Source of the DNA: a virus
IMG/VR virus record: IMGVR_UViG_3300024346_000363
Span: 1-29,603 of that record
DNA length: 29,603 bases
Strand: one strand, 5' to 3'
Shown here: one piece after another, positions 764 through 29,289 of the stretch
Position numbering within the stretch: position 1 is the first letter of the stretch
How the letters are laid out: each line of letters begins with the position of its first letter
Position numbers and translations under genes: made by a program
Notes under the pieces: model-generated
Told to the model about the DNA's origin: nothing
The model's database searches: none
What the model saw: only the letters and a program-made list of their open reading frames with translations

Positions 764-764
764 T

Positions 765-1592: not shown

Positions 1593-1601
1593 TAATTAAT
1601 T

Positions 1602-1645: not shown

Positions 1646-1657
1646 ACATTTAAATAT

Positions 1658-5676: not shown

Positions 5677-5812
5677 TCATTTATGGCAAAAGAAGTCAAT
5701 GACATTTTGTGATGTAATTAAACAAATAACTAACGGTAATTTGGAAATGACTGATGATGAGATAACTCAATCATTAAAGGACATAAATCCAGATGAGAAA
5801 CAAACAAAATAG
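5633..5812 (+). CDS. Small protein, 59 aa
   Basis: ATG 5633 to TAG 5810-5812 encodes 59 residues. The core LRKFDHLWQKKSMTFCDVIK, followed by a Gly-Asn turn and MTDDEITQSL, matches the general layout of small phage proteins with a W..NPDxxFxQLI helix followed by an acidic EDDE helix. That comparison is from memory and tentative. The gene overlaps the previous one by 44 nt and ends 2 nt before the sigma-factor start, so it fills an otherwise open 138-nt gap in the operon. A shorter form from ATG 5699 (37 aa) is possible. Confidence 0.6.
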   Translation: MTKQDRIGTVLRKFDHLWQKKSMTFCDVIKQITNGNLEMTDDEITQSLKDINPDEKQTK

Positions 5813-5814
5813 AT

Positions 5815-6829: not shown

Positions 6830-6853
6830 AAATGCAAATTTAAAATCAAAACA

Positions 6854-7822: not shown

Positions 7823-7823
7823 A

Positions 7824-8507
7824 ATGAAAATTTGGCACTTTAGTGACTCACATATGCTTCACAATAGAATATTAGTTCCAGATGGAATTGAGATGGCTAT
7901 TTTTAGTGGAGATTGCTCAAATCCAAGAGATAAATACTCTAATGAGCAAGAAGTTTTTAATTTTATAGAATGGTATGGAAGTCTTAAAATACCATATAAA
8001 ATTATGATTGCTGGTAATCATGATACATCTATTGAGGCAAAATTTGTCACAAGAGAGAAAATTGAAAGTAAGGGAATCATATATTTAGAGAATGAATCTA
8101 AGGAAGTTGGAGGGTTTAAGATATATGGTTCTCCTTTTACACCAACATTTGGTGAATGGGCATTTATGAAAGCAAGAGACAAGCTACATAATTTATGGCA
8201 AACAATACCATTTAATTCTGACATTGTAATAATTCATGGGCCTCCAAAAGGAATCCTTGATTTGTCTTATAATAGAATGAATGTTCTTGAGTTTTGTGGA
8301 TGTAATGCCTTAAAGAATAGAATGCTTGAAATACAACCAAAATTAATGTGCTTTGGGCACATTCATAACCACAAAGATATTATTAATGCTGGTTGGACTA
8401 AATTAAATAAATATCAGACAATATTCAGTAATGGATCTTGTGTAACTGATGGTAAATTTGAATATGGTCCAACAAGTCATGGTAATGTCTTTGATTTAAC
8501 AATTTAA
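7824..8507 (+). CDS. Calcineurin-like metallophosphoesterase
   Basis: From ATG 7824 this is 227 aa with all the blocks of the metallophosphoesterase fold: DSH (D8, H10), SGD (D30), GNHD (64-67), HGPP (138-141) and GHIH (178-181). These residues hold a two-metal centre that hydrolyses phosphate esters. The size fits small single-domain phosphatases or nucleases of phages and bacteria. The substrate cannot be told from sequence. ATG 7824 is chosen because the starts 31 codons upstream lie inside the exonuclease gene, while AAAGAAAGGGG (7806-7815) gives a good ribosome site. It follows the exonuclease by 1 nt, so the two may act together in nucleic-acid turnover. Confidence 0.9.
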   Translation: MKIWHFSDSHMLHNRILVPDGIEMAIFSGDCSNPRDKYSNEQEVFNFIEWYGSLKIPYKIMIAGNHDTSIEAKFVTREKIESKGIIYLENESKEVGGFKIYGSPFTPTFGEWAFMKARDKLHNLWQTIPFNSDIVIIHGPPKGILDLSYNRMNVLEFCGCNALKNRMLEIQPKLMCFGHIHNHKDIINAGWTKLNKYQTIFSNGSCVTDGKFEYGPTSHGNVFDLTI

Positions 8508-8957: not shown

Positions 8958-8984
8958 AGAAGAGGGGCTTAACCCCCTTTTTTC
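8956..8984. terminator. Bidirectional terminator between convergent blocks
   Basis: GGGG (8964-8967) pairs with CCCC (within 8973-8977) around a CTTAA loop. The + strand continues with six Ts (8978-8983). On the - strand the stem is followed by CTTCTTTAAT. The A/G-rich left flank can extend the pairing with wobble pairs. It sits directly behind the stop of the - strand 1874-aa gene (8984-8986), so its main job is likely ending the right block while also catching + strand read-through. Confidence 0.75.
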
Positions 8985-11900: not shown

Positions 11901-14608
11901 TTATTTGATATTTTAGGAGCATTCATTAATGCAAATGATTCATTTAAAACTTCAGATAAAGCCGAGTTTTTATTTAATCCAAGTAATTTTGATACAAATT
12001 CTAAAAGTTTAGAAAATACATTTGAATTTTTGTATTCTATTTTATTAAGTTTATTTTGAAATTCTTTATTACTCCAAGCTTCAGATATAAATTCATGTAT
12101 ATTTTTAAATCCATATTCTCCAACATCATAATTCTTTTTTAATTCAAAATATAGTTTAACTATATTGCTTGCGGCTTCTAATTGCTCCTTGCTTAATTTT
12201 GATTTATCACCACTAAGATATTCATCAATTAATTTAGATGTTGCCTCATGAGTTAGCTCATGTATATAAACTCTAGGTACATTTTTTACACCATTCCTAA
12301 TTTTAATTTCACCAGGTTTACCTTTGTAATATTCAAAACTACCTTGTGAATTATTAGCATCAACTTCATCTACAAAATCAACAGGTGTTGTTTCATCTAT
12401 AAAATCAGATAATAATGAAACAACTTCTTTTTCAATTTCTGTCCCATTATTTTTTATGATGTCAATCATATTTGCATTTGATGTTGTGTCAGATTGTGGA
12501 AAAAGTTGATTTATTTTAGAACTTTCAGAATCTTCTTCAATAAATGGCTTTATTATTTTACCATTATTATTTACTACATATAGGTTACCATTATATGCTT
12601 TTTTAACTTCATAACCAACTGCTCCAGCATTCTTTAATGCATCAGCTAATTGTTGCTTACTTGTTGAATAAGCAGTTGAAAATCCTGATTGATTTATTCC
12701 ATATCTTAATAAAACTTTGGTTATTTTATCATCTTCTTTTAGCAATATTGTTTTGCTTTCTTTTTCTCCTATAGTAACCTCATTCCATGTGTTGCCATAC
12801 TCATCAGTAACTTGCTTTGGATTATATCCTTGCTTTTTAAGAATATTAGATATGTTGTTTTCATAAAATGCTTCAATAGGTTTAAGTTTTTCAATACCTT
12901 GAGATTTAATGTTAGCTTTTTCTTTTTCTAATTCTTTTAATTCTCTAACAATAAGACTATTATTTTGTATATTAAATAATCTTTCTTCTTTAGAATTTAA
13001 TATATATAAATCATTATTTAAATTTTCTAGCTCTAGAATATTTTTTAATTCAATAGATGTATTATTTAAATCTACAATTTTATCACCTTTTATGAAAGCA
13101 TTAAAACTTTTTTCAGCATTTTTTTCATCAGCAAATATAGGATTACTATAACCTCTTGGTATATTTATAAATTCTCCAGTTTTTTTATTAATTAAAGCAG
13201 CAACTTTTGGTGGAGTAGAACTTGTAGAACTATGGTCATTTATTATTTTATAACCTAATTTTTTTGTTGTTAAATAATTATCATTTTTTATATTATTTTC
13301 AATACGTGATATAAGATTTGATTCATCTTCTAATCTTTTATTAAGTCTAAATTTATTTTTTTCAATTTCTTTATCTATTTTTAATAATTCATTAGCTAAA
13401 GTTTCATGACCCTCTACTTTAGCAGCAGTATCACCTGTAGGAAACAACACTTTCTCATATCCTTTCTTAGCAGAATCTTGTATAATAGATTTAACAAAGA
13501 ATGTTACCCAGTTAGATCCTTGGTTTAATAATTGTAGAAAATTATTAGATGTTTCAAATTTTTGAAGCTTTTCTTCATTTTCAGTATAACCTAATTCTTT
13601 AGCTCTAGTATAAGTAGTTTTTATTTCTTCCCCTCCAGGTCTAGTTTCATAAAAAGAATCACCTCTTCTTATTACAGTACTTCCAGTAAGTTCTTTTTTA
13701 TCTCTACCCTTCTGAAACAAATCAGATTGTACTTCAAGTATTCTACGAGTTTTTTCATCAGAAATTTTAGTAATACTTTTTACAAAATCTTTAGCTTCTT
13801 GTTCTGTTTTAAAAAACTCAATTTTTCTACCACCTGTAATTGGTAAATAAGAAACTTCCCATTTACCATTTGATAATTGCTCTATGTCTGGTTTATACTC
13901 TTCTGATAGTTCTGCTCCACCAAGATTAACTTGTCTATCATCACTTCTAAACCAACCAATACCTTGATCTGTAGCAAACTGAGCATGTCCTTTAATAGAA
14001 GGTGTAATAGCTGGTGTAGCTATCTCATTCTCTGTGTAATTAGTACCTCCTGGTACTGTTAGATTAGAGTAATACTTAGTAGGTAATAATTCTTGAGGCT
14101 TTGGTTTTAAATCTTCTTCTATAAGTTCTTTTATTTTATTTTTAGCTTCTCTTTCAGTTTGAAATCCTGTTAAAAATTCTTCATTATCCCTATATATACT
14201 ATAACCTGTTCTTTTAGAAATAATATCATACTCATAAGTATCTAAATCTTTATTAAAACTATTATCAGTTTTAGCAGTATTAACTTCAACAGTATAACTA
14301 TATTCAGAAGCAAATGAAACAAGTTTTTCTTCAATAGTATTGCCTTTTGAATTTTTAAATAATTCAACTTGTTCTTTAGGAATACCTAAATCCTTTTGAA
14401 TTTTATTCCAAAATACATCTGTATTACCAATTTGTTTAAACCAGCCGTTTATCTTAGAAATATTTTTAGTTACAATATCTGTAGCTTTTATAGAATAGCC
14501 AATTTGGCCTTCAGATTCATGCCACATAAGCATTGCCTTATCTTCACCAACTGAAGATTCTAACTCTTTCCACTCTTTTAAATTCTTATTAGGACAATAT
14601 AGTGCCAT
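8984..14608 (-). CDS. 1874-aa polyvalent-type protein with zincin and membrane segment
   Basis: The N-terminus (YCPNKNLKEWKELESSVGED) is of a kind I associate with giant proteins of crAss-like phages. Residues about 205-400 look like large-polyvalent-protein-associated modules (GHAQFATDQGIGWFRSDD, RRILEVQSDLFQKG, KGYEKVLFPTGDTAAKVEGH). A metalloprotease motif HELTH is at 783-787, with a downstream EFISEAWSNKEFQ acid likely completing the zinc site. Long helical and coiled-coil segments follow (about 1090-1300). Near the C-terminus are an RKWMPSAIESRLGE block, a hydrophobic stretch (LVLLTATLLAYLKL, about 1746-1762) and an acidic DDDEDKKRRK. Its length and position after the polymerase gene suggest a virion-borne or ejected protein. 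GGGAGG (14618-14623 region) lies 10 nt ahead of ATG. The role is inferred. The zincin and polyvalent features are visible. Confidence 0.8.
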   Translation of the reverse strand: MALYCPNKNLKEWKELESSVGEDKAMLMWHESEGQIGYSIKATDIVTKNISKINGWFKQIGNTDVFWNKIQKDLGIPKEQVELFKNSKGNTIEEKLVSFASEYSYTVEVNTAKTDNSFNKDLDTYEYDIISKRTGYSIYRDNEEFLTGFQTEREAKNKIKELIEEDLKPKPQELLPTKYYSNLTVPGGTNYTENEIATPAITPSIKGHAQFATDQGIGWFRSDDRQVNLGGAELSEEYKPDIEQLSNGKWEVSYLPITGGRKIEFFKTEQEAKDFVKSITKISDEKTRRILEVQSDLFQKGRDKKELTGSTVIRRGDSFYETRPGGEEIKTTYTRAKELGYTENEEKLQKFETSNNFLQLLNQGSNWVTFFVKSIIQDSAKKGYEKVLFPTGDTAAKVEGHETLANELLKIDKEIEKNKFRLNKRLEDESNLISRIENNIKNDNYLTTKKLGYKIINDHSSTSSTPPKVAALINKKTGEFINIPRGYSNPIFADEKNAEKSFNAFIKGDKIVDLNNTSIELKNILELENLNNDLYILNSKEERLFNIQNNSLIVRELKELEKEKANIKSQGIEKLKPIEAFYENNISNILKKQGYNPKQVTDEYGNTWNEVTIGEKESKTILLKEDDKITKVLLRYGINQSGFSTAYSTSKQQLADALKNAGAVGYEVKKAYNGNLYVVNNNGKIIKPFIEEDSESSKINQLFPQSDTTSNANMIDIIKNNGTEIEKEVVSLLSDFIDETTPVDFVDEVDANNSQGSFEYYKGKPGEIKIRNGVKNVPRVYIHELTHEATSKLIDEYLSGDKSKLSKEQLEAASNIVKLYFELKKNYDVGEYGFKNIHEFISEAWSNKEFQNKLNKIEYKNSNVFSKLLEFVSKLLGLNKNSALSEVLNESFALMNAPKISNKVGMESGVFKLGESKKYGQFQVFNSMPFQESTIERMSVGDQRITIRTRSHKDGIYVFNGEQYHIMSLGLKKVSEFKNKEYLKKKFKGDDYEEGKFEHIDDFFNDKRKLYVYQITKINNEIKNEAVELNNALEEVNPASSSKSKVSSDVKDSPFEEQFVFFKRRISTLEKQLSEEAKGSVKALKLEERILALSTKLDKAYQEQDEEAFTDLGMMALAEAEDYINKVEAVPSKANKDNLLYAVNILQSFYEFDNLATESRKLFKRAFPLILSHNLKTINQFASEGFELTEAMINAQVRDIGTFKSSVGALADLANYIGRTIGSLIKAAQNRASTANKLYKNEVQKHVDALTIYAKENGKTLEQVYDMFINETKDDIRLIQSEIYVDGEAVPNVEFDKIKSSKTLLDFYLFYQESLKNADSNLPYKVGKHHIPNINKSNTIAYDLTHVLAKHNVLYDQFKSNEELYADMVPQQYRNRLSKDKKSRDLGASLLDFVAYSNNYNELSKVLAEARLLQEQLKWVRSSDGSIKRREFTKSSQPDVRVFAEQTNLWKMINTVIDMQLKGHMTKKQGEIKGKKIYDAEGNEIGYEARYWSDVADVGLKYNSLLKIGLSPITAVTNILFGDISNIIESVGGRYFGIKDLAVATNIFGANALTKDSLLFKYLERINPLQELDDYNLTDKVKLKKMSAQKLQEYMYSMQKKGELFLQSRTMLAVMLKEGYIDNSGKLTAEGEKMMKDEARVTQFSDKIQRINQLIHGRYSNREAAAMQQSVFYRLAMQFRKWMPSAIESRLGEKQYDNRLGMDIEGRYLTLARLVASKDVFNNLIKMSKGELSELEMYNMKKNLIELVLLTATLLAYLKLTEGDDDEDKKRRKNPYVKLGLTLLNRISGDLEFFYNPSNIVSLTSNSIPLASVAKDLIKTVGSLPSAFYYGDYEYKAGSLKGRNKFWANLTKITPGARPVQDVWKIINKNPLDF
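12248..12262 (-). other. Zincin catalytic motif HELTH in the 1874-aa protein
   Basis: Codons for HELTH (residues 783-787) follow the strand PRVYI. This is the HExxH signature of zinc metalloproteases: two His ligands and a catalytic Glu. The later EFISEAW segment offers the third ligand. This is the second zincin motif in adjacent giant genes. Confidence 0.75.
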
Positions 14609-14611: not shown

Positions 14612-17600
14612 TTATTTACCTCCCTTACAATATTTTTTATATAATTCCATTATTTCTTTTTCTGTTGCATAATCTGGAACAGAAATACCAGCTGCTATTA
14701 GGTCTTTTTTAACACCTTGATGAGAAGTACTCAATATAGGCTTTTTTTCTGACTCTTGCAACTTTTCATTAGCTAATTCACTAGCAACATCAGATGATAA
14801 TGAATACTTGTTTTTAGGTTTAGATTGTTCTGCAACACTAGTAGATGATTGAGTGGATATGTAAGCTTCATTAAGAGCTTTAATAAACCAATTTTTACCA
14901 CCTGTTTCCCAGACACTATTTTGACTAGTAGGTTGATGAGTAGATGACAATACCCATTTAGAACCTCCTTGTTTAGTTATTTCAGAAACTAATCTAGGAT
15001 GTTGTTTTAATTTAGCTTTAATAATATCTACCATTAAATTATAAGTGCTATTTGCTCCTTCATCTTTAGTAGCTGTAGACTTTAATGATTGATATGCAGA
15101 TTCTGCATCTTTATAAATTTTACCTTTAAATTCTACAGGATAAGACTCTGTAATATTACCTTTAGATTTAGCAAGTTCTGTAGGATTAGTAAGTGCTGCT
15201 GCTAAACCTTTTGAATTAGAACTTATTTCTATTCCTAATTTAACTGAAGGCAACTTAGCCTCATCAAATTTAATTGATTCACTACCAATATTACCAACTT
15301 GAGCATTCTTTGCCTGCTTACTTACTGCTGCATCAATATCACCTGAATCAGCTTCATCAGGCTCAGTATCTTCATATTCAGATTTCTTTTTTTCTTGCTC
15401 TTTTGCTTTCTTTTGTAATAAGCTTGATTCAACATTGCTTTCATATCCTAATGGATATGGAGAAACTTTCTTATTACCAACAAATTCAAGTGGAGCATAA
15501 TTTGCACTTGTTCCAACATGTTTAGATTCTGTTAAATCATGGAACTTTGTTTTATCAAATTCTTTATAAGAAACAAGTTCATATAATGTTTTATCAAATA
15601 TTGCAAACTGAGGAAATATAAATTGAACTTTAGAACCCTTTTCTCCAGTCTTTTTGTTTACATATTCTTGAGACTCTGTTTCAAATACATTTTCTAGGTA
15701 ATCTCTTGCTTTATCATTAGATGTTCCATCTGCATTTCTAGAATTAAAAGTCATGTTACCATCTACATCTTTAACCCATCCCTCTTTACCAGCTAATTTT
15801 CTGTAAAATAGTTTCATATATTGATTTCCAACATATGTTGCAAATGATTTTCTAAAATCATATCCAATTTTACCAAAATTATCTCCTAACGTGTTTTTTT
15901 CTTGAATGTTATCCTTTTTATTAAGTTCATCTAATGTTACATCTAGTGCTTGAGATAATTTATCAAACATAAATGGAGCAACAAACTTAACAAATGATCC
16001 AGACTTAAACTCAAGGTTATCTTTAACTATTAAGTAGTTAAACATATTGATTGCAAAATCTCTTGTTTCTTTGTTATTATAAAGGTCCTTAAATGAATCA
16101 AGTAATATTGATATAGTTTCTGGAGATTCTTTAACAAATGATTTAGAACTAACTAAATCTAATATTCCATCTTCATCTGGAGTTGATTGTAAATATCTAA
16201 TTAATGAATTCTCAGATATTCTTGAATCAGGATTATTTTTTAGTTCAGTTAATTGCTGTCCAAGAGTTTTACCATCAAGGCCTTTGTATATCAATCTGTT
16301 ATTAATATTGTCAAGTCTTTTTGCATATGCATCTTTGATTGATTCTGAAACAGAAGGATCATTAATCATATTAATCATCAATTGCTTATAAGCTTTAGTA
16401 GCAATATAACCTAACATTGATCTACCAACTTCTCTCATAGAACCAGCCTTGTTTGCAAATGATTGACCTAAAATATCTTTCATTTTCTCCATTGACTTTT
16501 TAAACATATCAGTTTGGCTAATAAATATTTTACCACCTCTTTCAAGAACTTTAAATGCTCTTAATGTATTATCATATGTTAGTTTATCAGCATCAAGTGC
16601 TGCTTCTATGTCTATTGGAAGACTCATTTCTCTATTAACACCAATACTAACTGGTTGACCATCTTCATAATTAACAATAAGCCCTAAATCATTTATAGAT
16701 TTATTAAGTCTTTGTTGTAAGTCAATAAAAGATGTATCAAGACCTTGGTTAAGTTTTAATAGTGTATTAATATTTGAAAGCAAATCTGAATACTTTTCAA
16801 TTTCACTAAATTGTAATAAAGCATTAAGTTGTATTTCTTGCAATTGAATTGGATCAGTTATTTCACCAGATATAACTCCTGCTATATCTTCAGTTGAAAC
16901 ATTTTTCATGTTTTCTTTTAATCCTTTAACCATTTCATTGGTTACAAGTTCATATTTAATGTCTAAAACTTTAGATATAGTGTATTTTAATGTCTTACTC
17001 TTTGTAATGCCTTTTTCAACATTATTTTTTAATGAATATGAAGATATTTTTTTATTCTCAGAATAGATTTGTAATGCAGGTAAGTTAATTAATAAAGATG
17101 CTTCATATTCAGGTAATCCCTGAGCAATTAATTCACTCCATCCTGGAAGTAATTCCATACTAAGTCCAAGCCTTCCAGCAATAGGATCTTTAGCATTATC
17201 TGTCATGATTTGTAATCCAGTACCAAGTAAATCAGAAATACGATCACCAGCATTATTAATGTATGAATAGCCATCAGAAACATATCCACCTATCATGTAT
17301 TTAAATGCACCTTCTTTAATTTTAGAATTAACTTTTGCTAAGAAGTTAAAGTTTTGAATCTTATTAGCTACTACACCAATTCCATTTTTACCAGCACTAT
17401 TTTTTACATTAGCATCAAATTTACCATTAATATCAGAAGCTGAAATATTCTTATCAGAAATAACATATTTAGAATTTTTCTTTTTAATTGAATCAATTTT
17501 ATTTGCTACATTCTTAAGTCTGTCTGTAGAAGTTGCTGTGTATGCAATTCCTTTTAACATTTCTTCATTTGTTAACATTGCAATCCTTCTGTCAAGAATC

Positions 17601-20600
17601 ATGTTATTAATAACACCATTATTTAACATTTCTGGATTTTTCTTTTTAGAAAACTCATCAATAGAAATTGGTAATCCAAATTCTTTTAATGTAAGCTCAA
17701 TTGATGCATCTTTATCTTTTGTAAGTTCAAGATTCTTTTCATATTCTATTCTAAAATCTTGATCTCTTTTAGTCTTGTAATATTTAAAAGCTTCCCATTT
17801 ATCTTCCATAGTAGTTTCAGTCCCATATTTAATAGCTTTACCATCTTTCATCCAATAATCATGTAATTGGATAAACTCACTATCAATATCAAAATCCGCT
17901 CCAGATAAATGTACAATTTCCTGTGGGAATATACCAACACCTTCCATTGTTATTGGAAGCAATCCAACAACTTTTAATGAAATCATTGAATGTTTATCAT
18001 CAGTTGGAATACGGTATCCAAGAGCTTCTAATAATTCACTTGGTATTTCATCTCCAACTTTTAAACCATGTTTAGTTAAAACTTTTTCAGATAAAAGGCA
18101 TTCAGAAAAAACTCTACCATCTTTATCTTTTTTATTATGTGCAAGTTCTCTTTTTCTATAATTTTTATATTTAGCAGGATTTTTAGCAACTACTTGATAT
18201 GGAATAACATTATCATTTTCATCAACAACAACATCAACTCCTGCTCCAGAAACTAATGAAACTTTTGTTCCATTAACCTTTTGAGCTAACACTCCTTTGC
18301 TAAAATGAGCTAATACAATTTGTTCAGCTTTGTCAACCATATTAACCATGTTAAAGTTGTATGGTTTTGAAAACAACTCTAATAATGATTCATCAGCTCC
18401 ACTAGATTGTAAACTTCTAATTAACTTAGCATTTAATTTAGATATATCAACCTTGCCTTCTTTAACATCTTTAATGTATGTCATTGCAGCTTTAAAACTG
18501 TTCTTTCTACTATCAGACATTAATGATCTGTATTCTTTTCTTACATCACCTAAAGACATTGTCTTGCCAGATACATTGACAATAGCTTTGTCATCTTGTT
18601 CACTATCAATTAATTGTATTAATTGTGAACCATCAGTAATCTGATCTTTACCAGTTGGTGTTTCAACTTGTAAGCGCTTATACTCATTTAATACATCAAC
18701 CATTGAATTAGATAAATTAAATCCATCTTCTTCAGTATCAACTGGCATTAATGTAGCACCTTTTGATCCAGATTCTACAATAACTTGATCAATACCATGC
18801 TCATCCATTTGATTAGCTATTTTATGGTGATATTCCATTCCTGGAATTGGGCTATAAAGCTTAGCTAATTTCTTAGTTAAACTTGCTATTGCATTTTTAT
18901 CAAAATTTCTATCTCCTAATAAATCAATTAATTCATCAGTTAATCTATCAAATTCAGCAGAATTTTTCTTTTCAACATAAGATATAGTTCCTCTATCTAA
19001 AGAGTGTTCAGATGTTTTATGGTAAATACCCATTCCAAATGTAACAGTCTTGTCTGGATTAAGAGATGCTTTATTACTTTCTAAATAACCTTGATCTTCA
19101 TCTGTAATTTCTAAAGAAACAACATTATTTCTGTTTGGTGTCTTTAATATTTTCTTATAAATATCCCAAACTGCATTATCAAGTCTACCAAGTGCATGCA
19201 ATGAGTATATTTTATGTACCATAGACTGGTATGATTGAGCATTATTAGTTTCTACTTCAGCAACTTTTTTCTCAATACCATCTCTTAATACATATTTATA
19301 TTTAACCCCATCAGCATCTACACCTTCAAGTATCTCTTCACTTTTATCAACTCTTTGAAGATTACCATTTTCTGGTGTTATTATTACATGAGAATTTATT
19401 GCTTTAATATAAGACACTCTGTGAGTTCCTGATCCATAATTATTACCAGAACCCATAGCTCCTTTATTTCTTTTAGAAATATCAGTTTTATCTTTTCTAG
19501 ATATAGCATAATCACCATCTAATAATTCATTTAAACTATTAGACATTATGTAATCATTTAAATAATGCTCACTTATTGCTTCTCTAATAGAGCCATATCT
19601 TGCACCTTCTTTTCCAAAGAAGTTATTTGGCATGTAATTGCTTAATAATTCTTCATCTTTCTTATATATAATACCAAACTTTTCTAAGTTATCAATATAT
19701 CTAGATATACCTTCATTTAAATATTGCCTAATTGCATCTTTAACTTTTTCAGAAGGAATTTCACTTAATTTACCATCTTTTGCAAGCTTAATGATTTCAT
19801 TATATAATTCTTCATTAATGTCTTTTATATATGCAAATTCAGTTAATTCAAATGCTCTTCCATCTTCTTTGTTGTTATAGCCTTTGTATTTTGTTGTTTC
19901 ACCAAACTCTTTCCATTCTCTTGAAATTCTTTCAGCTTCATTGCTAAAATTATTAAATAAAATATCAACAGCTGTTGAATTAGCTTTACCTTTTTCAGAC
20001 ATTTTCATAAATGGCAATTCAGCAACATAAGCTGTATTACTTGCTTCATTCTGTCTAAATACATATTTAGCAGTTCCTTGTGTAGAACCTTTTGTTGCAA
20101 ATAATGCTAATGATTGAGCTAGGTATGTTCTTCCATCATAATCTCCAAATACTACACCAGAATCTTCATCCTCATGTCTAAGACCATCTATTATATTAAT
20201 CTTTAAATCTTTAACAAGACTTCTATAATTTCTTAATAAATAGTTGTTCTTAATAAACTTAAAGTTTCTGTTATTTAAATCATTATTCTTATCTTTACCA
20301 GATTCAAGTTGTTTTAAATAGCTTTCACTATTCATTTTCTTAGCTTGAGATAAAACATAAGAAGACTTAATGATTTCATATACAGACTTGCCTTCTGCAT
20401 TCTTAAAAGATGCATTACCAATAGTTTCATCAAACATACCATTAGCTTCTGCTAATGCTTCAATATCACCCTTAGCTCCAATTCTTTCATCTGAACTAAA
20501 TATATCTTTACCATCATTAATCATTTTAGCTAGTCCAGAAAAAGAACCTTCTCCTTTGAATAAGCTTGTTTTAAATGGCATTGTTTCATGATTCATATCA

Positions 20601-23600
20601 TAAACAAGTTGTTGTTTTTTAGTTAACTCAACTCCATTCTCAACTTTAGCAGCTAATAATGAATATTCAATATATCCTTTAGATAACTTAATACCAGTTG
20701 AATCAAACAGGTCCTTTAATTTATTAACCTTGTCTTTTAATTGAGTTGCATTCATTTTAGACTTAGACCCATTGTTCATTTCTTTAACAACAAGGTTCAT
20801 TCTATCAGCAATTTCTTGCTTAGTTACACCAACTGAACTCATCATATAATTAATTGATGACTTCCAATTTTCAACAGATAACTTTTTAGGATTATTTGTA
20901 TTTGCACTAGTAACTAAAAAGTTCTTTTTCTCATCAACTAATGTAAATAATTGAGTAGTTAAACTTCCATCAAATGCATTTAAAAACATTTGATAGTCAT
21001 TAAAGTTTTTAGTAGGCTGGCTAATTGTATTATCCTCATTTACAACCATGCCAGTATCTTCCATTAGTCTGTCTAATACAGCTTTAATGTTAGGGTTATA
21101 TTCAGAAACACTTTGTAATTTATTAATCATTCCTGATTTAGGAACATCAGCTAACACTCTTGTTAATCCATTGTATGCAGTTACAGAATCAACAGCAACC
21201 TCAACTTCTTTGCCAATGATTGGATCATATTCCATGTATGTACTAAATGAAATATACTCTTTTATAATTTTAGGAAGAGAATCATGACCACCAGATAACC
21301 AAGCGTCTTGTGATGAGAATTTTTCTTTTACATCATTGTTTTCATTAACTTGTTCAGCTTGATCATCAATAGGTTCATAATTAAGAGACTTAAGTCTTCC
21401 CATAACCTGTTCTTTTAATACACTTTTGTATTGATCATCTTCATATGTATTAAGTTCTTTGTTAGCTTCTTGATTAATTTTTCTATATGCTTCTAAGCTT
21501 TTTTCTTTAATAGATTCTGCATAAGCATAAAAATCATCACTCTCTAGCTGAGACATTCTTTCATTTACAAAATAATCAAACAATTGATCATCAGACATGC
21601 CTAATAAACTATTCCCATACTCACCTCTTTTAGCTCTATTTATTTTAGCTGCAAATGTACTTATTAATTTATTAGATTTCTTTTGTGTATGGCTAATTGG
21701 TTGAAATGAAGATGTTCCAGTTAATTCATCATATACTTCTTCAGTTCCAGCTGGAATTAATTTGTATACAGCCATTCCAATCTTAAGATCAAATCTATTG
21801 CTTTTTTTAGTAGAAGTAGAAAATGCCTTATCAGATATCTTACCAAATAATGCATCAAGTGGTTCAGAATGATATTGAAACATTTTGAACAAATTCTTAA
21901 CCATTATAAAGAATCTTCTGAATGGGCCTTTAGATTTTTCATTTGCTTTAAATCCTTCCCATCTTTCAGCCATATGCTCTTCATATACAAGATCTTCTAA
22001 ATCTTCTAATGATAATACAGCATATTCAGCACTAGTTTTTCTAAGTCTTTCTATATCTTTCTTAAGTTGATTTAAAGCATTAGAACCATGTTTTGATATG
22101 TATTCTTTTTGAGCTTCAGCTAAATATTTCTGAATCTCTTGCTCTGTTAATAATAATCTAAACACAGCATGAAATGCCTCATGATAAGCAGTACCTTTAG
22201 TTGCTGTATTTTTATTTAGATATATTAAACCATCCCTAAATACACCTAATGGTATTTTATTAGCTTTAAGATTATTAATTATTTTACTAATATCTTTAAT
22301 TTCAATAAAGCTAGGTAACATTGCTTTCACATCATCAATTTCTTCTTGAGATAATGGCTTGCCACTTGTGTCTTCCATTTTAAATGCTGAAGGACCTTTT
22401 GGCTCATTTAATTCTGCTTTTGTTAATTCATTTCTAGTTGCAGTTATTTGCTTTTCTAAAGCTCTTAAATCTTTAGGATTTGAATTAACATCTTTTTCAA
22501 GAGCTTCTTTTTGTTTTATTAATCCACTAAGCTGTATTCTTAAATCAGCAGCAATTGATTCAGATTGTTTAGTTTCAGCAGGTGTTTTAGCACCTTCTAA
22601 AGCAGCTAGTTCTGCATCATATTTAACATTTATTTTATCTTTAACTTCTTGTTCTGTTTTACCTATGATTTGTTCAGACCAATCACCATTTTTATCAGGT
22701 TTTGATAAATAATAATAACCTTCATAATTACCTGTTTCAACCAAATCTCCATTCTTAAATTCAGTTTCCTTACTAATAAAATTTGTTTCATCTAATCCTA
22801 CAATATTAGGTTCTTCTATTAATCCAAAAGACCATGCTTTTCTTAATTCTAAACCATCAACAGTTTTTAATAAATTTGATTGTTCTTGTTCAATTAAAGC
22901 AATTTTAGATAAATTAGAATCTTCTATTTTTTTAAATTCTATATCAAATTGTTTTTTAGCTTCTTTTATTTTACCCCAATTTTCTTTACCAAAATATTCT
23001 TCTTTATTTGTTATGTTTTTACCTACCCATTTCCCATCTATTAATTCTTCTAATGACCAATTATTAATTCTTGTGTTTACAGGTAATGGTATATTCTTAA
23101 TAAGTTTATGAATTAGATTATCTCTATCAATTTCTTCTTCTAGATTAATATTACTAATTTGTTGTATATACTTTTCATTTTTATTATTTGTTTCTTGTCT
23201 TCTTCTTTCTATATCAGCTGTTTTAGCTTCTATGTCAGAAACAGGAGCTGCTTTAACATATTTATCTAATAAATCCTTAACATCATCTTTAGATGTTGCA
23301 GATTTAACTATTTCTCTTTCTTCTGCAGACATGTCAACCATATTCTCTTTAGAGAATCCTAGCTTAACCCCTTTTGCAATTGTTACATTACTTGGGTATG
23401 TTCCAGTTTTAACACCATCTTGATTATCTATATCAGATTTTGCAGTGTTATTAACAGAACTAGTTGCAGAAACTTTAGCAAATACTAATTGTTGAGATTT
23501 AACTACATCAACTGAAACTGCTGATGTCATTTCATCAACAGCATTCTTAGGAGAAATTGAAGCCTTAAAATCTGCTCTTGATAATTTCAATCCTAATTCT

Positions 23601-26600
23601 TTATTAGCAGCAGCTAATAACGCATCTATTGATGTTATATTAGACATGTTAACAAATACACTCTTAACAACTTTAGACTTGTTATTTCCATTAATAAAGC
23701 CCTCTAATGTAACTCTAACCTTACCTTTACCATCTCCTTTTTCATTACCAGCAGTAATTGCTAATGAAACAGCAAAGCTATCATAATTAACTCCATCTAT
23801 CTTTAATTTAGAATCAACTGCAATAAAAAATCCTTCATTTAATTCTGAGTTAAAATTAGATATATCATTTCTGTCAACCTCTTTTGATGCTCTAACATCT
23901 GCAGCCTTGTCTCTAATTTTTTCAAACACTTTGTTAGTTGAAGAATCAGATAGTTGATCTAATTTAGCAGGTCTAACTCTTACATATCTAACTGATCCAT
24001 TGTCCATTGGAATGACAAGAACATATCTTCCTAAATCATTAGGAATTGATTTCTCATCAATCTCAACTCCTGGTTGAAATAAACTTTCATCTATATTACC
24101 AATAAAAGATCCAGTTGTGTATTCTCCTTCTTGTCTTGCTTTAAAGTCATATATTAAATGTTGACCACCAGTTAAACTTAAATCAATATTTAAATCTTTA
24201 ATTAATGGCTGTTGTTGTCCATTAGGAACTAAGTCTAATGAACCATCAGTTAAACCAAATCTTATCCCAAGATCTTTAGTTGTAAAAGTTTTAGCTGGAC
24301 TGGCTTTAACTGTCTTAATTAAATTAATTGTAAAAGGATCAGTTGCTAATGCATTAACAAAACCAACATTATTGCCATCTAAAAATATACCAACATTCTT
24401 GTGTTTTCCACCTTTAGAGTCAGTACCTTCAACCACTTTTAATGTAATATGATTGTCAATATCTTCATTGTTTTTAACTAATGATTTAATTGCATCAATT
24501 ACTCTTTTAATAAATGATTTCTTTTTATCTTTATCTGCTTCAACAGAAACAACTTCACCAAATTTTTCAAACTCTTGACCTTTGTCTACATCTGGAGTTG
24601 TTGATAAATCAACTGCTCCTTGACCATCTTGAGATGCATCATCTTTTGATTCATCAGCAGCTTGTTTTTTAAATATTGGAGAGTTTCCAGATCTTGCTGC
24701 AGCCTCTTCCTCAGTTTCAACTTCTCCTTCAGCTTTGTCAGATGGAACTTCATAGTCAACACTTTCAACTGTCCCATCTACATTTTTATTTACATTGACA
24801 ACTTCAGCTTGTCTACTAACTCCATTATGTTTTACAACAATTGAGTCACCAACTTCTGGACCAGCTTGAGCTTTTTTAGAAGAGCTTCTTGCTAATATAG
24901 CATCTATATCATCATCATCTGCTTCAACTCCTGCTGCATCAAGTGGATTAACATCTTCTCCATTTTCATATTTCTTTTTAGCTGTAGCTGATTTTGCATT
25001 TGATTTCTTTATTATTTCTTCAGCTTCTTTATCAATTAAATCATTTGCAGCTTGAACATGCTCCTTCATTAATTCTCTATATTCTTTAGAAAATTGATCT
25101 TCTCTTTCTTGAAGTTTTTCAATGTCTTCTATTTTAGCTAATGCAGATTCAATGTCCATTGGATTCATTGCTGCATTTTTTAAAGCTTCTTTATATACTG
25201 CTTTATTTTCTGCAGTTTGTGATAAATAGTTATTACCAAGTAATGTTAATGGATTAGTACCTTCTAAAGAAGAATATATATTTCTTGATACTAAATTTTT
25301 AATTTGATCATTTAATGATGCCTTTCTACTTTTTGCATTATCAATAGTCAAAGATGAATATGCTAGTCTTTCTTTATTTCCATCACTAGCATTTGGGAAT
25401 CTTTCATCTATAATAGAATAAGCTCTTTGAATTTGTTTTACTTTATTAATCTTGTCTTCTACAAATTGAGCTACAGTTTGTTTGTTTTGAGATATTTCAT
25501 CAGTTGACATTTCATTGCCAAAGTTTGATCTAAACTCTTCTTCAGACATTGATTTAAAATTATTTAATTCATTTATCAAGTCTTCAGCTTTACCATATTT
25601 TGCTTTTGTTGATGCATAATTTATAAAGTCATCATTCTTTGCATTTTCATATGAGAATGTATCATTATTTTCTAATGCATTCTTTTGTTCCTCAACTAAG
25701 TTACCATGTCTCATTGCTTTACTAATTAAGTCTGTATAGACTTTTTTAGTTGAAAGATTTGACAATGCAGTTGGAACTGAATTTGTAATATTAGGATCAG
25801 AATAAGCTCCTGCTCCTTCTTTAAAAAGAGTTGTAGCATTACCCATTAATCCACCACTTAATGCTCCAATAAGTCCTTGATCCCAGCCTTCTTTTGTACC
25901 ATAAGCTTGATAAACTCCTTCAGAAAAAGAATCAATAAAGCTTGCTGCTTCTGGATTATAAAACTTCTTTTTGTAATAATCATTTACACCTTTTGTAATT
26001 CCATATTGAGACTGTTCCTGAAAGAAACCTTCTGCAATCATTGGCTCTACAAATTTTCTAGTCCCATATGTTTTCTCAAGAACTTTATCAATCTTTGATT
26101 TCTTTGCTAATTTATAAGCACCATCAAAACCTTCTTTAGAAACTTTTTCACCAAGACCTTTTAAATTAACTGCATCTGTAACTTTGTTGCCAAAAACTGA
26201 TTTACCAAATGTAATCCAGTTATCAAGCATAATGATTGGCATGTTTAATGCAAAAGAACTATTGCCAGCTTCTTCTGATAATAACTCTATATAATCTTTC
26301 TGTGATTGAGTTGCTTGAAATCCTTGTTTCCTTTCTAATTCAGATGTCATTGAAGTTCTAAATTCATTCTTATCAGATCTTGCATTAGCTGATGATTCAG
26401 CCATTGCACCCAATCCAGTAATAACACCATTTTTTAAACCATCTTTTACTTGATATAGTTTATTTGTATTTTCAATAAACTTAACTTTGTCAGTTGCATT
26501 TTCAATCTTTCTTAATCCTTCAAGATATTCAGCAGATTTACCAACCATTGCAGTTTTACCTAAAGCTGTAAAAGCTTTTGTATATGCATTACCAGACATA

Positions 26601-27169
26601 ATAGCTCCAGCAGAATATCCAATACCATCTAACACATCTCTCCATAATGTATTTCCATACATTAGTTTTTCAAATCCATGAGCTTCTTCTTCTCTTTTAG
26701 TTGAATAAAATGGAACTGCTGCTTTTATTTGTTTATCAGCATCATCAACTAATTTAGTGAATGGATTGTCATAGAATGAACTAGCTTTACCATCTTTAAT
26801 AGCATAGAATGTTCCAACAAATGGATTAATAACACCTTCAGCTGCAGATGTTACAGCTCTTCCAGCCATATTAACTACACCATTAGCAGCTTTGTCATAC
26901 CAAGGTTGTCTTTCACCTCTTAAGTATTCAAATTGGGTTTTACCAGATTGTTCAACATTAAAATACTCAGAAGTCATTTGAGTATCATATTTACTTTCAC
27001 CAAATTTACCATAGCCAGATTCAGTAGAATATCCAGGTAATTCTGAAGGTCTAAGAATGCTCTTTGCTGTTAGTCCAGTTAAATCTCTTTGTTGGACACC
27101 TGTTGGCTTAGGTTTTTCTGTGTATCCAGAATTGTCTGGTACTATTATTGGTCTTAGTTTTTTTCCCAT
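14612..27169 (-). CDS. 4185-aa giant protein: zincin, DFDID RNA polymerase and C-terminal NADAR-like domain
   Basis: Domains in order. Residues 1-480 are a Gly/Ala-rich region with hydrophobic helices, possibly membrane or capsid-cargo related. Coiled coils run from about 480 to 730. A small beta domain (GDSIVVKHNGVSRQAEVV) follows near 770. HEAFH with a later EEHMAERW acid is a zincin at about 1663. Then comes a very long region around the polymerase core: HFSKGVLAQK, RIPTDDKHSM, VVGLLP, and GADFDID with catalytic aspartates at 3092-3096. This matches the crAss-like phage polymerases related to phi14:2 gp66 and to RNAi-type polymerases, which synthesise RNA from DNA. The C-terminus (about 3980-4100) resembles NADAR/YbiA. 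The gp66-type protein is about 2180 aa, so this one is nearly double and looks like a fusion or polyprotein. It starts in TAATG with the 706-aa gene and is followed by the 1874-aa gene. Confidence 0.9.
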   Translation of the reverse strand: MGKKLRPIIVPDNSGYTEKPKPTGVQQRDLTGLTAKSILRPSELPGYSTESGYGKFGESKYDTQMTSEYFNVEQSGKTQFEYLRGERQPWYDKAANGVVNMAGRAVTSAAEGVINPFVGTFYAIKDGKASSFYDNPFTKLVDDADKQIKAAVPFYSTKREEEAHGFEKLMYGNTLWRDVLDGIGYSAGAIMSGNAYTKAFTALGKTAMVGKSAEYLEGLRKIENATDKVKFIENTNKLYQVKDGLKNGVITGLGAMAESSANARSDKNEFRTSMTSELERKQGFQATQSQKDYIELLSEEAGNSSFALNMPIIMLDNWITFGKSVFGNKVTDAVNLKGLGEKVSKEGFDGAYKLAKKSKIDKVLEKTYGTRKFVEPMIAEGFFQEQSQYGITKGVNDYYKKKFYNPEAASFIDSFSEGVYQAYGTKEGWDQGLIGALSGGLMGNATTLFKEGAGAYSDPNITNSVPTALSNLSTKKVYTDLISKAMRHGNLVEEQKNALENNDTFSYENAKNDDFINYASTKAKYGKAEDLINELNNFKSMSEEEFRSNFGNEMSTDEISQNKQTVAQFVEDKINKVKQIQRAYSIIDERFPNASDGNKERLAYSSLTIDNAKSRKASLNDQIKNLVSRNIYSSLEGTNPLTLLGNNYLSQTAENKAVYKEALKNAAMNPMDIESALAKIEDIEKLQEREDQFSKEYRELMKEHVQAANDLIDKEAEEIIKKSNAKSATAKKKYENGEDVNPLDAAGVEADDDDIDAILARSSSKKAQAGPEVGDSIVVKHNGVSRQAEVVNVNKNVDGTVESVDYEVPSDKAEGEVETEEEAAARSGNSPIFKKQAADESKDDASQDGQGAVDLSTTPDVDKGQEFEKFGEVVSVEADKDKKKSFIKRVIDAIKSLVKNNEDIDNHITLKVVEGTDSKGGKHKNVGIFLDGNNVGFVNALATDPFTINLIKTVKASPAKTFTTKDLGIRFGLTDGSLDLVPNGQQQPLIKDLNIDLSLTGGQHLIYDFKARQEGEYTTGSFIGNIDESLFQPGVEIDEKSIPNDLGRYVLVIPMDNGSVRYVRVRPAKLDQLSDSSTNKVFEKIRDKAADVRASKEVDRNDISNFNSELNEGFFIAVDSKLKIDGVNYDSFAVSLAITAGNEKGDGKGKVRVTLEGFINGNNKSKVVKSVFVNMSNITSIDALLAAANKELGLKLSRADFKASISPKNAVDEMTSAVSVDVVKSQQLVFAKVSATSSVNNTAKSDIDNQDGVKTGTYPSNVTIAKGVKLGFSKENMVDMSAEEREIVKSATSKDDVKDLLDKYVKAAPVSDIEAKTADIERRRQETNNKNEKYIQQISNINLEEEIDRDNLIHKLIKNIPLPVNTRINNWSLEELIDGKWVGKNITNKEEYFGKENWGKIKEAKKQFDIEFKKIEDSNLSKIALIEQEQSNLLKTVDGLELRKAWSFGLIEEPNIVGLDETNFISKETEFKNGDLVETGNYEGYYYLSKPDKNGDWSEQIIGKTEQEVKDKINVKYDAELAALEGAKTPAETKQSESIAADLRIQLSGLIKQKEALEKDVNSNPKDLRALEKQITATRNELTKAELNEPKGPSAFKMEDTSGKPLSQEEIDDVKAMLPSFIEIKDISKIINNLKANKIPLGVFRDGLIYLNKNTATKGTAYHEAFHAVFRLLLTEQEIQKYLAEAQKEYISKHGSNALNQLKKDIERLRKTSAEYAVLSLEDLEDLVYEEHMAERWEGFKANEKSKGPFRRFFIMVKNLFKMFQYHSEPLDALFGKISDKAFSTSTKKSNRFDLKIGMAVYKLIPAGTEEVYDELTGTSSFQPISHTQKKSNKLISTFAAKINRAKRGEYGNSLLGMSDDQLFDYFVNERMSQLESDDFYAYAESIKEKSLEAYRKINQEANKELNTYEDDQYKSVLKEQVMGRLKSLNYEPIDDQAEQVNENNDVKEKFSSQDAWLSGGHDSLPKIIKEYISFSTYMEYDPIIGKEVEVAVDSVTAYNGLTRVLADVPKSGMINKLQSVSEYNPNIKAVLDRLMEDTGMVVNEDNTISQPTKNFNDYQMFLNAFDGSLTTQLFTLVDEKKNFLVTSANTNNPKKLSVENWKSSINYMMSSVGVTKQEIADRMNLVVKEMNNGSKSKMNATQLKDKVNKLKDLFDSTGIKLSKGYIEYSLLAAKVENGVELTKKQQLVYDMNHETMPFKTSLFKGEGSFSGLAKMINDGKDIFSSDERIGAKGDIEALAEANGMFDETIGNASFKNAEGKSVYEIIKSSYVLSQAKKMNSESYLKQLESGKDKNNDLNNRNFKFIKNNYLLRNYRSLVKDLKINIIDGLRHEDEDSGVVFGDYDGRTYLAQSLALFATKGSTQGTAKYVFRQNEASNTAYVAELPFMKMSEKGKANSTAVDILFNNFSNEAERISREWKEFGETTKYKGYNNKEDGRAFELTEFAYIKDINEELYNEIIKLAKDGKLSEIPSEKVKDAIRQYLNEGISRYIDNLEKFGIIYKKDEELLSNYMPNNFFGKEGARYGSIREAISEHYLNDYIMSNSLNELLDGDYAISRKDKTDISKRNKGAMGSGNNYGSGTHRVSYIKAINSHVIITPENGNLQRVDKSEEILEGVDADGVKYKYVLRDGIEKKVAEVETNNAQSYQSMVHKIYSLHALGRLDNAVWDIYKKILKTPNRNNVVSLEITDEDQGYLESNKASLNPDKTVTFGMGIYHKTSEHSLDRGTISYVEKKNSAEFDRLTDELIDLLGDRNFDKNAIASLTKKLAKLYSPIPGMEYHHKIANQMDEHGIDQVIVESGSKGATLMPVDTEEDGFNLSNSMVDVLNEYKRLQVETPTGKDQITDGSQLIQLIDSEQDDKAIVNVSGKTMSLGDVRKEYRSLMSDSRKNSFKAAMTYIKDVKEGKVDISKLNAKLIRSLQSSGADESLLELFSKPYNFNMVNMVDKAEQIVLAHFSKGVLAQKVNGTKVSLVSGAGVDVVVDENDNVIPYQVVAKNPAKYKNYRKRELAHNKKDKDGRVFSECLLSEKVLTKHGLKVGDEIPSELLEALGYRIPTDDKHSMISLKVVGLLPITMEGVGIFPQEIVHLSGADFDIDSEFIQLHDYWMKDGKAIKYGTETTMEDKWEAFKYYKTKRDQDFRIEYEKNLELTKDKDASIELTLKEFGLPISIDEFSKKKNPEMLNNGVINNMILDRRIAMLTNEEMLKGIAYTATSTDRLKNVANKIDSIKKKNSKYVISDKNISASDINGKFDANVKNSAGKNGIGVVANKIQNFNFLAKVNSKIKEGAFKYMIGGYVSDGYSYINNAGDRISDLLGTGLQIMTDNAKDPIAGRLGLSMELLPGWSELIAQGLPEYEASLLINLPALQIYSENKKISSYSLKNNVEKGITKSKTLKYTISKVLDIKYELVTNEMVKGLKENMKNVSTEDIAGVISGEITDPIQLQEIQLNALLQFSEIEKYSDLLSNINTLLKLNQGLDTSFIDLQQRLNKSINDLGLIVNYEDGQPVSIGVNREMSLPIDIEAALDADKLTYDNTLRAFKVLERGGKIFISQTDMFKKSMEKMKDILGQSFANKAGSMREVGRSMLGYIATKAYKQLMINMINDPSVSESIKDAYAKRLDNINNRLIYKGLDGKTLGQQLTELKNNPDSRISENSLIRYLQSTPDEDGILDLVSSKSFVKESPETISILLDSFKDLYNNKETRDFAINMFNYLIVKDNLEFKSGSFVKFVAPFMFDKLSQALDVTLDELNKKDNIQEKNTLGDNFGKIGYDFRKSFATYVGNQYMKLFYRKLAGKEGWVKDVDGNMTFNSRNADGTSNDKARDYLENVFETESQEYVNKKTGEKGSKVQFIFPQFAIFDKTLYELVSYKEFDKTKFHDLTESKHVGTSANYAPLEFVGNKKVSPYPLGYESNVESSLLQKKAKEQEKKKSEYEDTEPDEADSGDIDAAVSKQAKNAQVGNIGSESIKFDEAKLPSVKLGIEISSNSKGLAAALTNPTELAKSKGNITESYPVEFKGKIYKDAESAYQSLKSTATKDEGANSTYNLMVDIIKAKLKQHPRLVSEITKQGGSKWVLSSTHQPTSQNSVWETGGKNWFIKALNEAYISTQSSTSVAEQSKPKNKYSLSSDVASELANEKLQESEKKPILSTSHQGVKKDLIAAGISVPDYATEKEIMELYKKYCKGGK
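14618..14623 (-). promoter_or_regulatory. Ribosome binding site for the 1874-aa gene
   Basis: GGGAGG on the - strand sits in the final Gly-Gly codons of the giant gene, about 10 nt ahead of ATG (14606-14608). Only three bases separate the two genes, so one message carries both. Confidence 0.65.
17882..17896 (-). other. RNA polymerase catalytic motif DFDID
   Basis: The codons encode D-F-D-I-D (residues 3092-3096), preceded by HLSGA. In multisubunit-type and gp66-type RNA polymerases, three aspartates in the double-psi beta-barrel hold the catalytic magnesium. All three are intact here, so the polymerase is predicted to be active. Confidence 0.9.
22169..22183 (-). other. Zincin catalytic motif HEAFH in the giant polymerase protein
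   Basis: The codons encode H-E-A-F-H (residues 1663-1667) after KGTAY. EEHMAERW about 85 residues later supplies a candidate third zinc ligand. This is the HExxH pattern of metallopeptidases, intact in its visible catalytic residues. Confidence 0.75.
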
Positions 27170-29289
27170 TATTCTCCTTGTTCTGGTTCTGGTTCCGATT
27201 CTGATTCTGTTTGGTATTTTTGATAATTTTTAGCATCTGCACTAACTCCTTTAGGATTAAAGAATCCCAAGTGTTTTGATAAACCACTAGATGACAATCT
27301 TCTAGATGCTTCTCCTACATCTATAGGATCTTCTGTAACTTGATTATTTGAATTTAATACTAAACTTTTAAACTCTGTTCCATTTGGTCCATTATGAATG
27401 TAAGTTATATATTTATTCCCTTCATAATCTTCTTCTTCACTAACTACATTAATCATTGCTTTTGAAACTCCTAATTGTTTAGAAATTGCTAATTCATCTG
27501 ATGTTGCTTGCGCAGAATTTATAGATCTATTTCCATTTACAACAAACTCATTAATTGATTTTAATAATCTATCAGAAGATTGAGTTGCATTTTTTAAATT
27601 AGATAGACCAGTTTGAATTATGTATCTCTTACCATCACCTCCAGTTATTTCCATATCTCCAGGAACTAATTTTTTATTAGTTAATGATCTATTAAATCCA
27701 CTTAAATTTGCTCCATTTAATCTTGCAGCATTATTTTCTGGATCTTTTACAACTTCTCCATCTGCAGTCTTAATAGTTACATTTGATAATTGTCCTGGAT
27801 CTTTTATATTACCATTTCCATCAAGTACAACCTGAAACTGTCTAGATAGCCAATCTCCAAATTCTGGAGGAAATGCATTAGATGATGTTTCAATATTATT
27901 AACCTTACTTAAATAACCTCCAATTGCATTTAATGCTTCATCTTTGCTTGATGCATTAACTCCAATTCTTTTGGCTGTAGATATCATTTTATTTACATCA
28001 TTAACCATACCATCTCCAAGAGCTTTAGTTTTTATTGGATATTTAACATATTCCCAACCATCACCAGAACTATTTGGTAGCCTAACCGTTATGTCTTTAT
28101 CTGTCTTATCCATTACTTGGAACTTAACTCCATTAATATCTACTTCTCCTCCTTCCATTGGTAATTCATCTACATTTATGTTTTTACCTAAAACATTAGT
28201 ATAGTGTGATCCTGGTGCTGGTGGATTATAAACTGGTTTACCATCTTTATACTCAAAATTATCACCAAGAATTCCTTGAATAACTCTTGTAGAACTATTA
28301 TCATTATTTGCTGTTAATGGATCAGCAGCCATAAATTGCTCTGACAATTGGAATGCTTTAATTCTTTCTTGTTCTGCATCTGCTTTATCAGCTGCTCTTA
28401 AATCCCAAGAATTTGCTTTTAAAGACATGCTTCCTTTAGATCCTCTATATTTAGCAACTAATCCTTCTTCAATTGCTGTTACTCTGTCTGCATATTCTTT
28501 TTCTGCATTATTTGGATTTATTGATCCATCAGCAATACCATATTGTATTTCCTTTATTATGTCTTGTTTTGTTTTACTATTTTCTAAGAAACTTCTAAAT
28601 GTGTTTCTAATTTTAGGATCAATAATTTCTTCCATTTTACCAGATTGAATATAACCTTGATTATCTGGACTAGCATACAATTTTGTTATTTCAGAATTAA
28701 TTCCTTTAGTTAAATCATCTAGTTCTTTATTTCTATCTACATAAGCACCAACATTTGATGTTGACAATCTTTGATCACCTTCAATTCCTTGACCAACTCC
28801 ATAATTCTGTCTGCTTCTTTGTATTTCCATTGCTCTCCAAGGAGACAAATTTAAATCTTCAGCTTCTTGTAATGCCTTTTGCTGTTCTTGATATGTTTTA
28901 TATGCAGCATTAATTTCACTAAGTTTACCAGTTGAAAGTTCTTTGTTTATATCTCTTGATTTTTTCTTTAGCCATGTCTTGTATTCAACAGATCCTTTGT
29001 CACCTTTTGCTAATTCATCTGCTTTAGTACTTAGCTCTTGATTAAGATCATTAAAATACTTACTAGCATAATCTTTATCTCCAACATTGTAAGTTTGTCC
29101 AAATGCACTAACTTGATCTAATGCTTGAACTTTTTCTTGTAAGTCAGATAATGCATCTTCTTCTTCAACAGATTTATTAAATTGTTTTTGCTTCTCAGCT
29201 CCTTCAGCTGCTATTAATTCTAATGGCAGTGGAACATATTGAGAAACATATTTGTTAGGCTCTATGAGTTGATTAAATCTTGATGGCAT
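27169..29289 (-). CDS. Candidate virion/cargo protein, 706 aa
   Basis: I do not recognise a catalytic domain. The N-terminus (RFNQLIEPNKYVSQYVPLPL) followed by a long helical section (about 25-170) resembles internal structural proteins placed ahead of the RNA polymerase genes in crAss-like phages, judged from layout. The middle is beta-rich with several Gly-Asp turns (GGEVDINGVKF, ITGGDGKRYII). The C-terminus is a disordered acidic tail (ESESEPEPEQGE). No signal peptide or membrane helix is seen. The stop codon TAA overlaps the next ATG (TAATG), coupling it to the polymerase gene. Structural or co-packaged cargo is the best inference. Confidence 0.7.
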   Translation of the reverse strand: MPSRFNQLIEPNKYVSQYVPLPLELIAAEGAEKQKQFNKSVEEEDALSDLQEKVQALDQVSAFGQTYNVGDKDYASKYFNDLNQELSTKADELAKGDKGSVEYKTWLKKKSRDINKELSTGKLSEINAAYKTYQEQQKALQEAEDLNLSPWRAMEIQRSRQNYGVGQGIEGDQRLSTSNVGAYVDRNKELDDLTKGINSEITKLYASPDNQGYIQSGKMEEIIDPKIRNTFRSFLENSKTKQDIIKEIQYGIADGSINPNNAEKEYADRVTAIEEGLVAKYRGSKGSMSLKANSWDLRAADKADAEQERIKAFQLSEQFMAADPLTANNDNSSTRVIQGILGDNFEYKDGKPVYNPPAPGSHYTNVLGKNINVDELPMEGGEVDINGVKFQVMDKTDKDITVRLPNSSGDGWEYVKYPIKTKALGDGMVNDVNKMISTAKRIGVNASSKDEALNAIGGYLSKVNNIETSSNAFPPEFGDWLSRQFQVVLDGNGNIKDPGQLSNVTIKTADGEVVKDPENNAARLNGANLSGFNRSLTNKKLVPGDMEITGGDGKRYIIQTGLSNLKNATQSSDRLLKSINEFVVNGNRSINSAQATSDELAISKQLGVSKAMINVVSEEEDYEGNKYITYIHNGPNGTEFKSLVLNSNNQVTEDPIDVGEASRRLSSSGLSKHLGFFNPKGVSADAKNYQKYQTESESEPEPEQGE
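27174..27179 (-). promoter_or_regulatory. Ribosome binding site AAGGAG for the giant gene
   Basis: On the - strand AAGGAG lies four bases before ATG (27167-27169), within the end of the 706-aa gene. With the TAATG overlap this supports translational coupling and confirms the start. Confidence 0.7.
27181..27209 (-). repeat. Hexanucleotide repeat encoding a Ser/Pro-Glu tail
   Basis: About five units of TTCTGG/TTCYGA on the + strand encode alternating Glu with Ser or Pro at the C-terminus of the 706-aa protein. Such tracts are prone to slippage in multiples of six, which would alter length without breaking the frame. Confidence 0.6.

Follow-up and report, generated by a model that had tools for sequence, protein, structure and literature searches.

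A single reading frame of 4185 codons dominates a 29,603-base IMG/VR virus fragment, and it raises two related questions: does it encode a novel kind of transcription machine or a rearranged version of one already known, and how might such a large protein reach its site of action and work there? The preliminary description, made from the sequence alone, had read the frame as a hydrophobic N-terminal region, a zincin, a gp66-type DFDID polymerase and a C-terminal accessory domain, possibly delivered with the virion and cut into working parts. Large multidomain transcription proteins of crAss-like phages have been described by Yutin et al. 2021 (PMC7886860), and polymerase genes of these phages reach ~6000 aa according to a review (PMC10136315). 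Hence, we analyzed the whole fragment (hereafter the window), which is a single metagenomic fragment, by profile searches, structure prediction and comparative genomics. Homology and gene order identify the protein as the equivalent of gp67 and gp66 of phage phi14:2 joined in one frame.

The fused frame and its genomic context

The frame runs on the minus strand from an ATG to a TAA and is uninterrupted, as the preliminary description had stated. At the 29% GC of the window, base composition predicts 4186 successive sense codons with a chance of ~1e-140, and the longest stop-free run in 30 simulated first-order Markov sequences was 146 codons; the frame is thus far beyond chance. The features of the locus, all on the minus strand, are as follows, with the flanking and cargo-related modules designated A, B and C.

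27169..29289, minus: 706-aa gene upstream of the fusion, occupying the position of phi14:2 g068 (gene order; weak blastp match, E 0.004)
14612..27169, minus: fused virion RNA polymerase gene, 4185 aa (open reading frame list and homology)
24983..27007, minus: module A, residues 55-729, homologue of the cargo proteins crAss001 gp47 and phi14:2 gp67 (blastp, profile)
21773..22369, minus: zincin-like domain, residues 1601-1799 (matches the crAss001 gp47 C-terminal domain)
22169..22183, minus: HEAFH motif, residues 1663-1667 (sequence)
19826..21598, minus: N-terminal part of module B, residues 1858-2448, directly after the zincin (HMM match, ~150 frames)
17570..19012, minus: polymerase core, residues 2720-3200 (profile match to PDB 6VR4 and fold match)
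17882..17896, minus: catalytic DFDID motif, residues 3092-3096 (sequence conservation)
15815..17548, minus: C-terminal part of the polymerase, residues 3208-3785 (profile matches)
14840..15232, minus: optional C-terminal domain of the fused protein, residues 3980-4110 (conserved in eight other loci)
8984..14608, minus: module C gene downstream of the fusion, its 1874-aa product homologous to phi14:2 g065 and crAss001 gp49 (blastp, HMM)
12248..12262, minus: HELTH, a further zincin-like motif, within the module C protein (phi14:2 g065 has a homologous site)

The three genes of this strand are arranged serially, such that the stop codon of the 706-aa gene shares one base with the ATG that opens the fused gene, and a 3-base gap separates the fused gene from the module C gene. 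Replication-type genes occupy positions 1-8507 of the plus strand and converge on this trio. In the same stretch, a 182-aa protein (5815-6363, plus) resembles RNA polymerase sigma factors (phrog_1740, E 1e-7), in a phage with a polymerase of its own.

As a single query the 4185-aa protein recovered nothing useful from Pfam, PHROGs or PDB, the results being empty or nearly so, and a contig scan with the window sequence alone returned zero contigs; relatives were reached by alignments (profiles) or tblastn alone. Matches by tblastn to deposited phages were mostly to crAss-like phages, with 22-27% identity at the best-covered places, and the polymerase part gave blastp matches to crAss001 gp50 (E 9e-15) and phi14:2 gp66 (E 3e-16). 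The module C protein likewise matched phi14:2 g065 and crAss001 gp49 (E 9e-15 and 4e-17). Phage phi14:2 of the Steigviridae shares with the window the same two modules in the same order, on the same strand and between the same flanking genes: its g068-g067-g066-g065 series (580-1798-2181-1422 aa, with near-zero gaps) is repeated as 706-4185-1874 aa, and it is on account of this order that we equate the 4185-aa protein with gp67 plus gp66. Unlike in the window, the two phi14:2 genes are distinct and overlap by one base. As candidates for an internal start of the polymerase, ATG codons of the fused frame at residues 1799, 1858, 1872 and 1923 lack an obvious ribosome-binding site, a feature that is not decisive for Bacteroidota phages.

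The polymerase module

An alignment of 65 members covering residues 2440-3600 gave a profile match with an E-value of 1.3e-72 to phi14:2 gp66 (residues 707-1852 of its structure, 6VR4). Consistent with this, an AlphaFold2 model of the polymerase part (pLDDT 88.7, pTM 0.86) matched 6VR4 with an E-value of 1.7e-28 and a TM score of 0.65 over the query, in a match of the whole model rather than of each barrel singly; the runners-up in this fold search were the phage polymerases P32 gp64 and P23-45 gp96. Residues K2707, K2718, K2803, R3053, P3055, D3092, D3094 and D3096 are invariant or nearly so. These include the three aspartates of the DFDxD metal-binding motif, together with R3053 and P3055 of its GYRxP context, here YRIP preceding DFDID, and the active-site residues of gp66 are conserved in the window polymerase. 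Homology thus extends across the polymerase body, and the modeled chain is predicted to share the gp66 fold with its two double-psi barrels. Membership in the gp66-type family is secure, and the proposed match of the 2800-3200 region to double-psi barrel polymerases was recovered with 6VR4.

The N-terminal module, the zincin-like domain and the C-terminal domains

The homology of module A to the gp47/gp67-type cargo proteins spans the N-terminal ~700 residues of the fused protein (blastp E 3e-33 with crAss001 gp47; E 3e-58 with phi14:2 gp67 in an iterated HMM profile search). Apart from the appellation 'putative RNA-polymerase subunit', no annotation has so far been given to gp47 and gp49. The hydrophobic character ascribed to this region did not hold: the mean Kyte-Doolittle value of the first 500 residues is -0.53 as against -0.59 for the entire protein, and its few Ala/Gly-rich stretches (around residues 106, 304 and 431) include none exceeding 1.1 over 19 residues.

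Between modules A and B lies the zincin-like domain, in which the sole invariant positions among 40 aligned members are the signature Y-H-E-x-x-H and a downstream E-E pair that would supply the third ligand; the earlier reading of this motif was therefore sound. HExxH occurs in 145 of 146 frames with zincin and polymerase, the exception being truncated by a contig edge, in a scan that itself selected for HExxH; it is also found in 69 of the 71 loci recovered with the polymerase motif alone. Searches with the domain recovered no match among Pfam families or PDB sequences, and a fold search of the PDB with the zincin-plus-junction model gave no meaningful match. That AlphaFold2 model, with a mean pLDDT of 81, places HEAFH on a helix after two strands and predicts a short, mostly ordered link to module B rather than a long disordered one; the linker is also partly conserved in sequence. 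Assignment to the zincin class draws on the motif, the homology to crAss001 gp47, the arrangement and the annotation of the gene at the equivalent position in p-crAssphage ('fused to zincin protease'), whose own zincin matches a different profile, and proteolytic activity is a prediction. The zincin-like HELTH motif that the window carries in module C is of a type that, in Intestiviridae, instead terminates the module A protein.

The C-terminal accessory domain of the preliminary description corresponds to the optional domain at residues 3980-4110. It weakly matches phrog_1017 (4/5 members), while no match was found in Pfam and PDB. A NADAR/DUF1768-like fold, suspected from the annotation of the cr126_1 polymerase, was without Pfam support and was also set aside because the cr126_1 C-terminus shows no resemblance to these residues.

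Recurrence of the fusion

Scans of viral contigs with the polymerase-core and zincin alignments yielded at least 80 loci each. Among the matches listed for the polymerase motif alone, zincin and polymerase lie in one frame in 71 of 80 IMG/VR contigs; of the nine others, seven are truncated by the 5' contig edge, and the frame is separate or broken in two (L079, L083). Because the contigs were selected for their resemblance to the window, such frequencies describe its neighbourhood rather than all crAss-like phages. Frames complete for A, zincin and B span 3785 to 5160 aa, with a median of 4517. Near relatives of the fused type encode a crAss-type portal (35% identity, E 1e-124) and a major capsid protein, and it is from them that the evidence for Crassvirales comes, the window fragment itself being without those genes. 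In a polymerase tree, a fully supported branch separates the fused contigs from the deposited Steigviridae, Suoliviridae and Intestiviridae, in a quick reconstruction with long branches and midpoint rooting only. The fused contigs constitute a large environmental clade that has no members in the named phage collection searched and in which most loci carry the giant fusion as a rule; no publication describing it was found in a limited open-access library.

Comparable fusions are nevertheless present in named phages. In the Suoliviridae, cr55_1 gp70 (4551 aa, annotated 'hypothetical protein') and cr118_1 gp14 (4946 aa, annotated 'exonuclease V') combine the zincin and the polymerase core in a single frame, and a module C gene comes next, but they are very distant from the window in sequence, fall in a separate clade of the polymerase tree and, unlike it, show no module A N-terminus with the profiles used. 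The Intestiviridae (p-crAssphage gp45/gp44, crAss002, ctcc615) resemble the window in having giant polymerase genes of 4071-4424 aa, with p-crAssphage gp45 annotated as an RNAP-associated protein fused to a zincin protease; here, however, the polymerase is fused to module C and not to module A. Suoliviridae polymerase genes measure 4491-4946 aa, two of them being those with the zincin in frame. Hence, the notion that crAss-like polymerases are typically split or about half the size of the window protein is not supported. A fusion of this kind already exists in deposited gut phage genomes and in dozens of environmental relatives, and that of the window is an instructive variation on a known design rather than a new machine.

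A near-constant order of modules with wandering gene boundaries

Comparison across these phages adds a further observation: the order A-zincin-B-C is near-constant, while the gene boundaries wander. Modules A, B and C are three genes in Steigviridae; A is separate from a B+C gene in Intestiviridae; and A+B precedes a separate C gene in Suoliviridae and the window clade. A sub-branch (L055, L066, L067, L070, L112, L133) has the A N-terminus, zincin+B and C as separate genes, with just the latter two resolved in L066. Within phi14:2 gp67, unlike the window protein, the zincin was not detected. As in the window, crAss001 gp47 joins module A to a zincin of the same type, at its C-terminus, with gp50 as the polymerase; but gp47 is a separate gene and an exception to the order, being encoded on the strand opposite to that of gp50 and gp49. 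At the other extreme, Chitinophaga sp. YR573 encodes A, zincin, B and C in one 5491-aa frame on a chromosome contig (L203:1064-17536). That fusions of adjacent modules occur for every pair argues for a joint action of the parts in equal amounts.

A crAss-type portal ~30 kb upstream and a tyrosine recombinase ~23 kb downstream of the Chitinophaga frame suggest that this isolate genome carries the region as an integrated crAss-like prophage, though the crAss001 capsid protein as query found no match in it. Spirosoma oryzae DSM 28354 has a 3367-aa zincin+polymerase frame and a module C gene (L187:5903-20541); the contig also carries a portal gene and an integrase, and this is possibly a second such prophage. 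The cyanobacterial Leptolyngbya phage Lbo-JY46 encodes module A and a 2748-aa protein that combines a zincin-like domain with module C (L168:17593-30499), and no polymerase core was detected within that stretch. In cr108_1 (L174:11519-23112) module A and the zincin share a frame that closes with the polymerase core, and the C-terminal part of the polymerase is in the next gene, ~290 bases on, such that the break falls inside the polymerase itself.

Delivery, processing and alternative readings

The identity of the modules, their synteny, the conservation of the active-site motif and the recurrence of the fusion are established here. The best explanation of the whole, to which we assign a probability of about 0.82, is that the protein is an in-frame fusion of A+zincin with B that is packaged, injected and transcribes early genes, these last steps being argued by analogy with homologues. 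By this account a chain of ~470 kDa would be packed in the capsid beside a separate module C protein, threaded partly unfolded through the tail into the host, and refolded there so as to transcribe early genes without the host polymerase; the fusion would set a 1:1 ratio of A and B and ensure that both are packaged and enter together. Virion delivery, which the preliminary description had proposed, is well supported by mass spectrometry of the unfused homologues: gp47, gp49 and gp50 were detected in crAss001 virions (PMC10172136), and phi14:2 g065-g068 are annotated from MS/MS in their GenBank notes. The crAss001 cargo is thought to exit partly unfolded through tail channel constrictions of <50 angstroms (PMC10172136), and early transcription by the phi14:2 polymerase is resistant to rifampicin, as a review recounts (PMC10136315).

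Alternatively, module A might stay in the ejection channel in the envelope and hold the polymerase at the entry point, where transcription would help pull in the genome. A similar role was proposed for the polymerase of the Thermus phage P23-45, whose authors also cite crAss-like fusions (PMC10770324). Its gp96 (5002 aa) is comparable to the window protein as a giant virion protein combining a two-barrel RNA polymerase with a metallopeptidase domain, but the polymerase is N-terminal, on a tape measure protein, and belongs to another lineage with a weak fold match only. The Ala/Gly-rich stretches of module A would suit a tethering role; however, the module is not strongly hydrophobic, the predicted membrane helix of crAss001 is in a different protein, gp45 (PMC10172136), and many relatives encode A and B as distinct proteins, leaving this reading unlikely at perhaps one chance in four.

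Rather less probable is that the protein is a polyprotein, in which cleavage by the central zincin around residues 1800-1858 would release the polymerase from A at assembly or after entry. The position of the zincin exactly at the A/B boundary, the invariance of its HExxH and glutamate residues, and the separate A and B proteins of Steigviridae, which imply that B can work unattached, accord with such cleavage. But crAss001, cr112 and Dulem virus 41 retain the zincin as the C-terminal domain of a separate gp47-type protein with no B to free, which speaks against the separation of A from B as its main function, and the junction with B is a short one with some sequence conservation and, in the model, mostly ordered. 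Phage N4 injects its 3500-residue virion polymerase as a single chain, so that protein size alone does not demand cutting. The comparative evidence does not call for the suggested division into working parts. A more specific and still more doubtful version has the chain packaged and threaded as a single molecule and holds the zincin to be a built-in maturation protease, activated in the host by the ordered entry of the N-terminal module and then cutting the polymerase free; if true, the fused lineages would represent a self-processing injected polyprotein. Finally, that sequencing or assembly spuriously joined two genes, a concern already raised in the preliminary description, is rejected as extremely improbable: although the window is one metagenomic fragment and the cr108_1 and L083 frames are broken elsewhere within the same module, the fusion recurs in at least 71 other, independent contigs, with polymerase segments down to ~20-30% identity, and in deposited Suoliviridae genomes.

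Conclusions

The natural fusions between neighbours, A+B, B+C and all of them in the Chitinophaga region, lend support to the idea of a single functional unit comprising module A, the zincin and the polymerase in these phages. With their near-constant order and wandering boundaries, these lineages offer a direct test of whether the proteins are injected as one thread.
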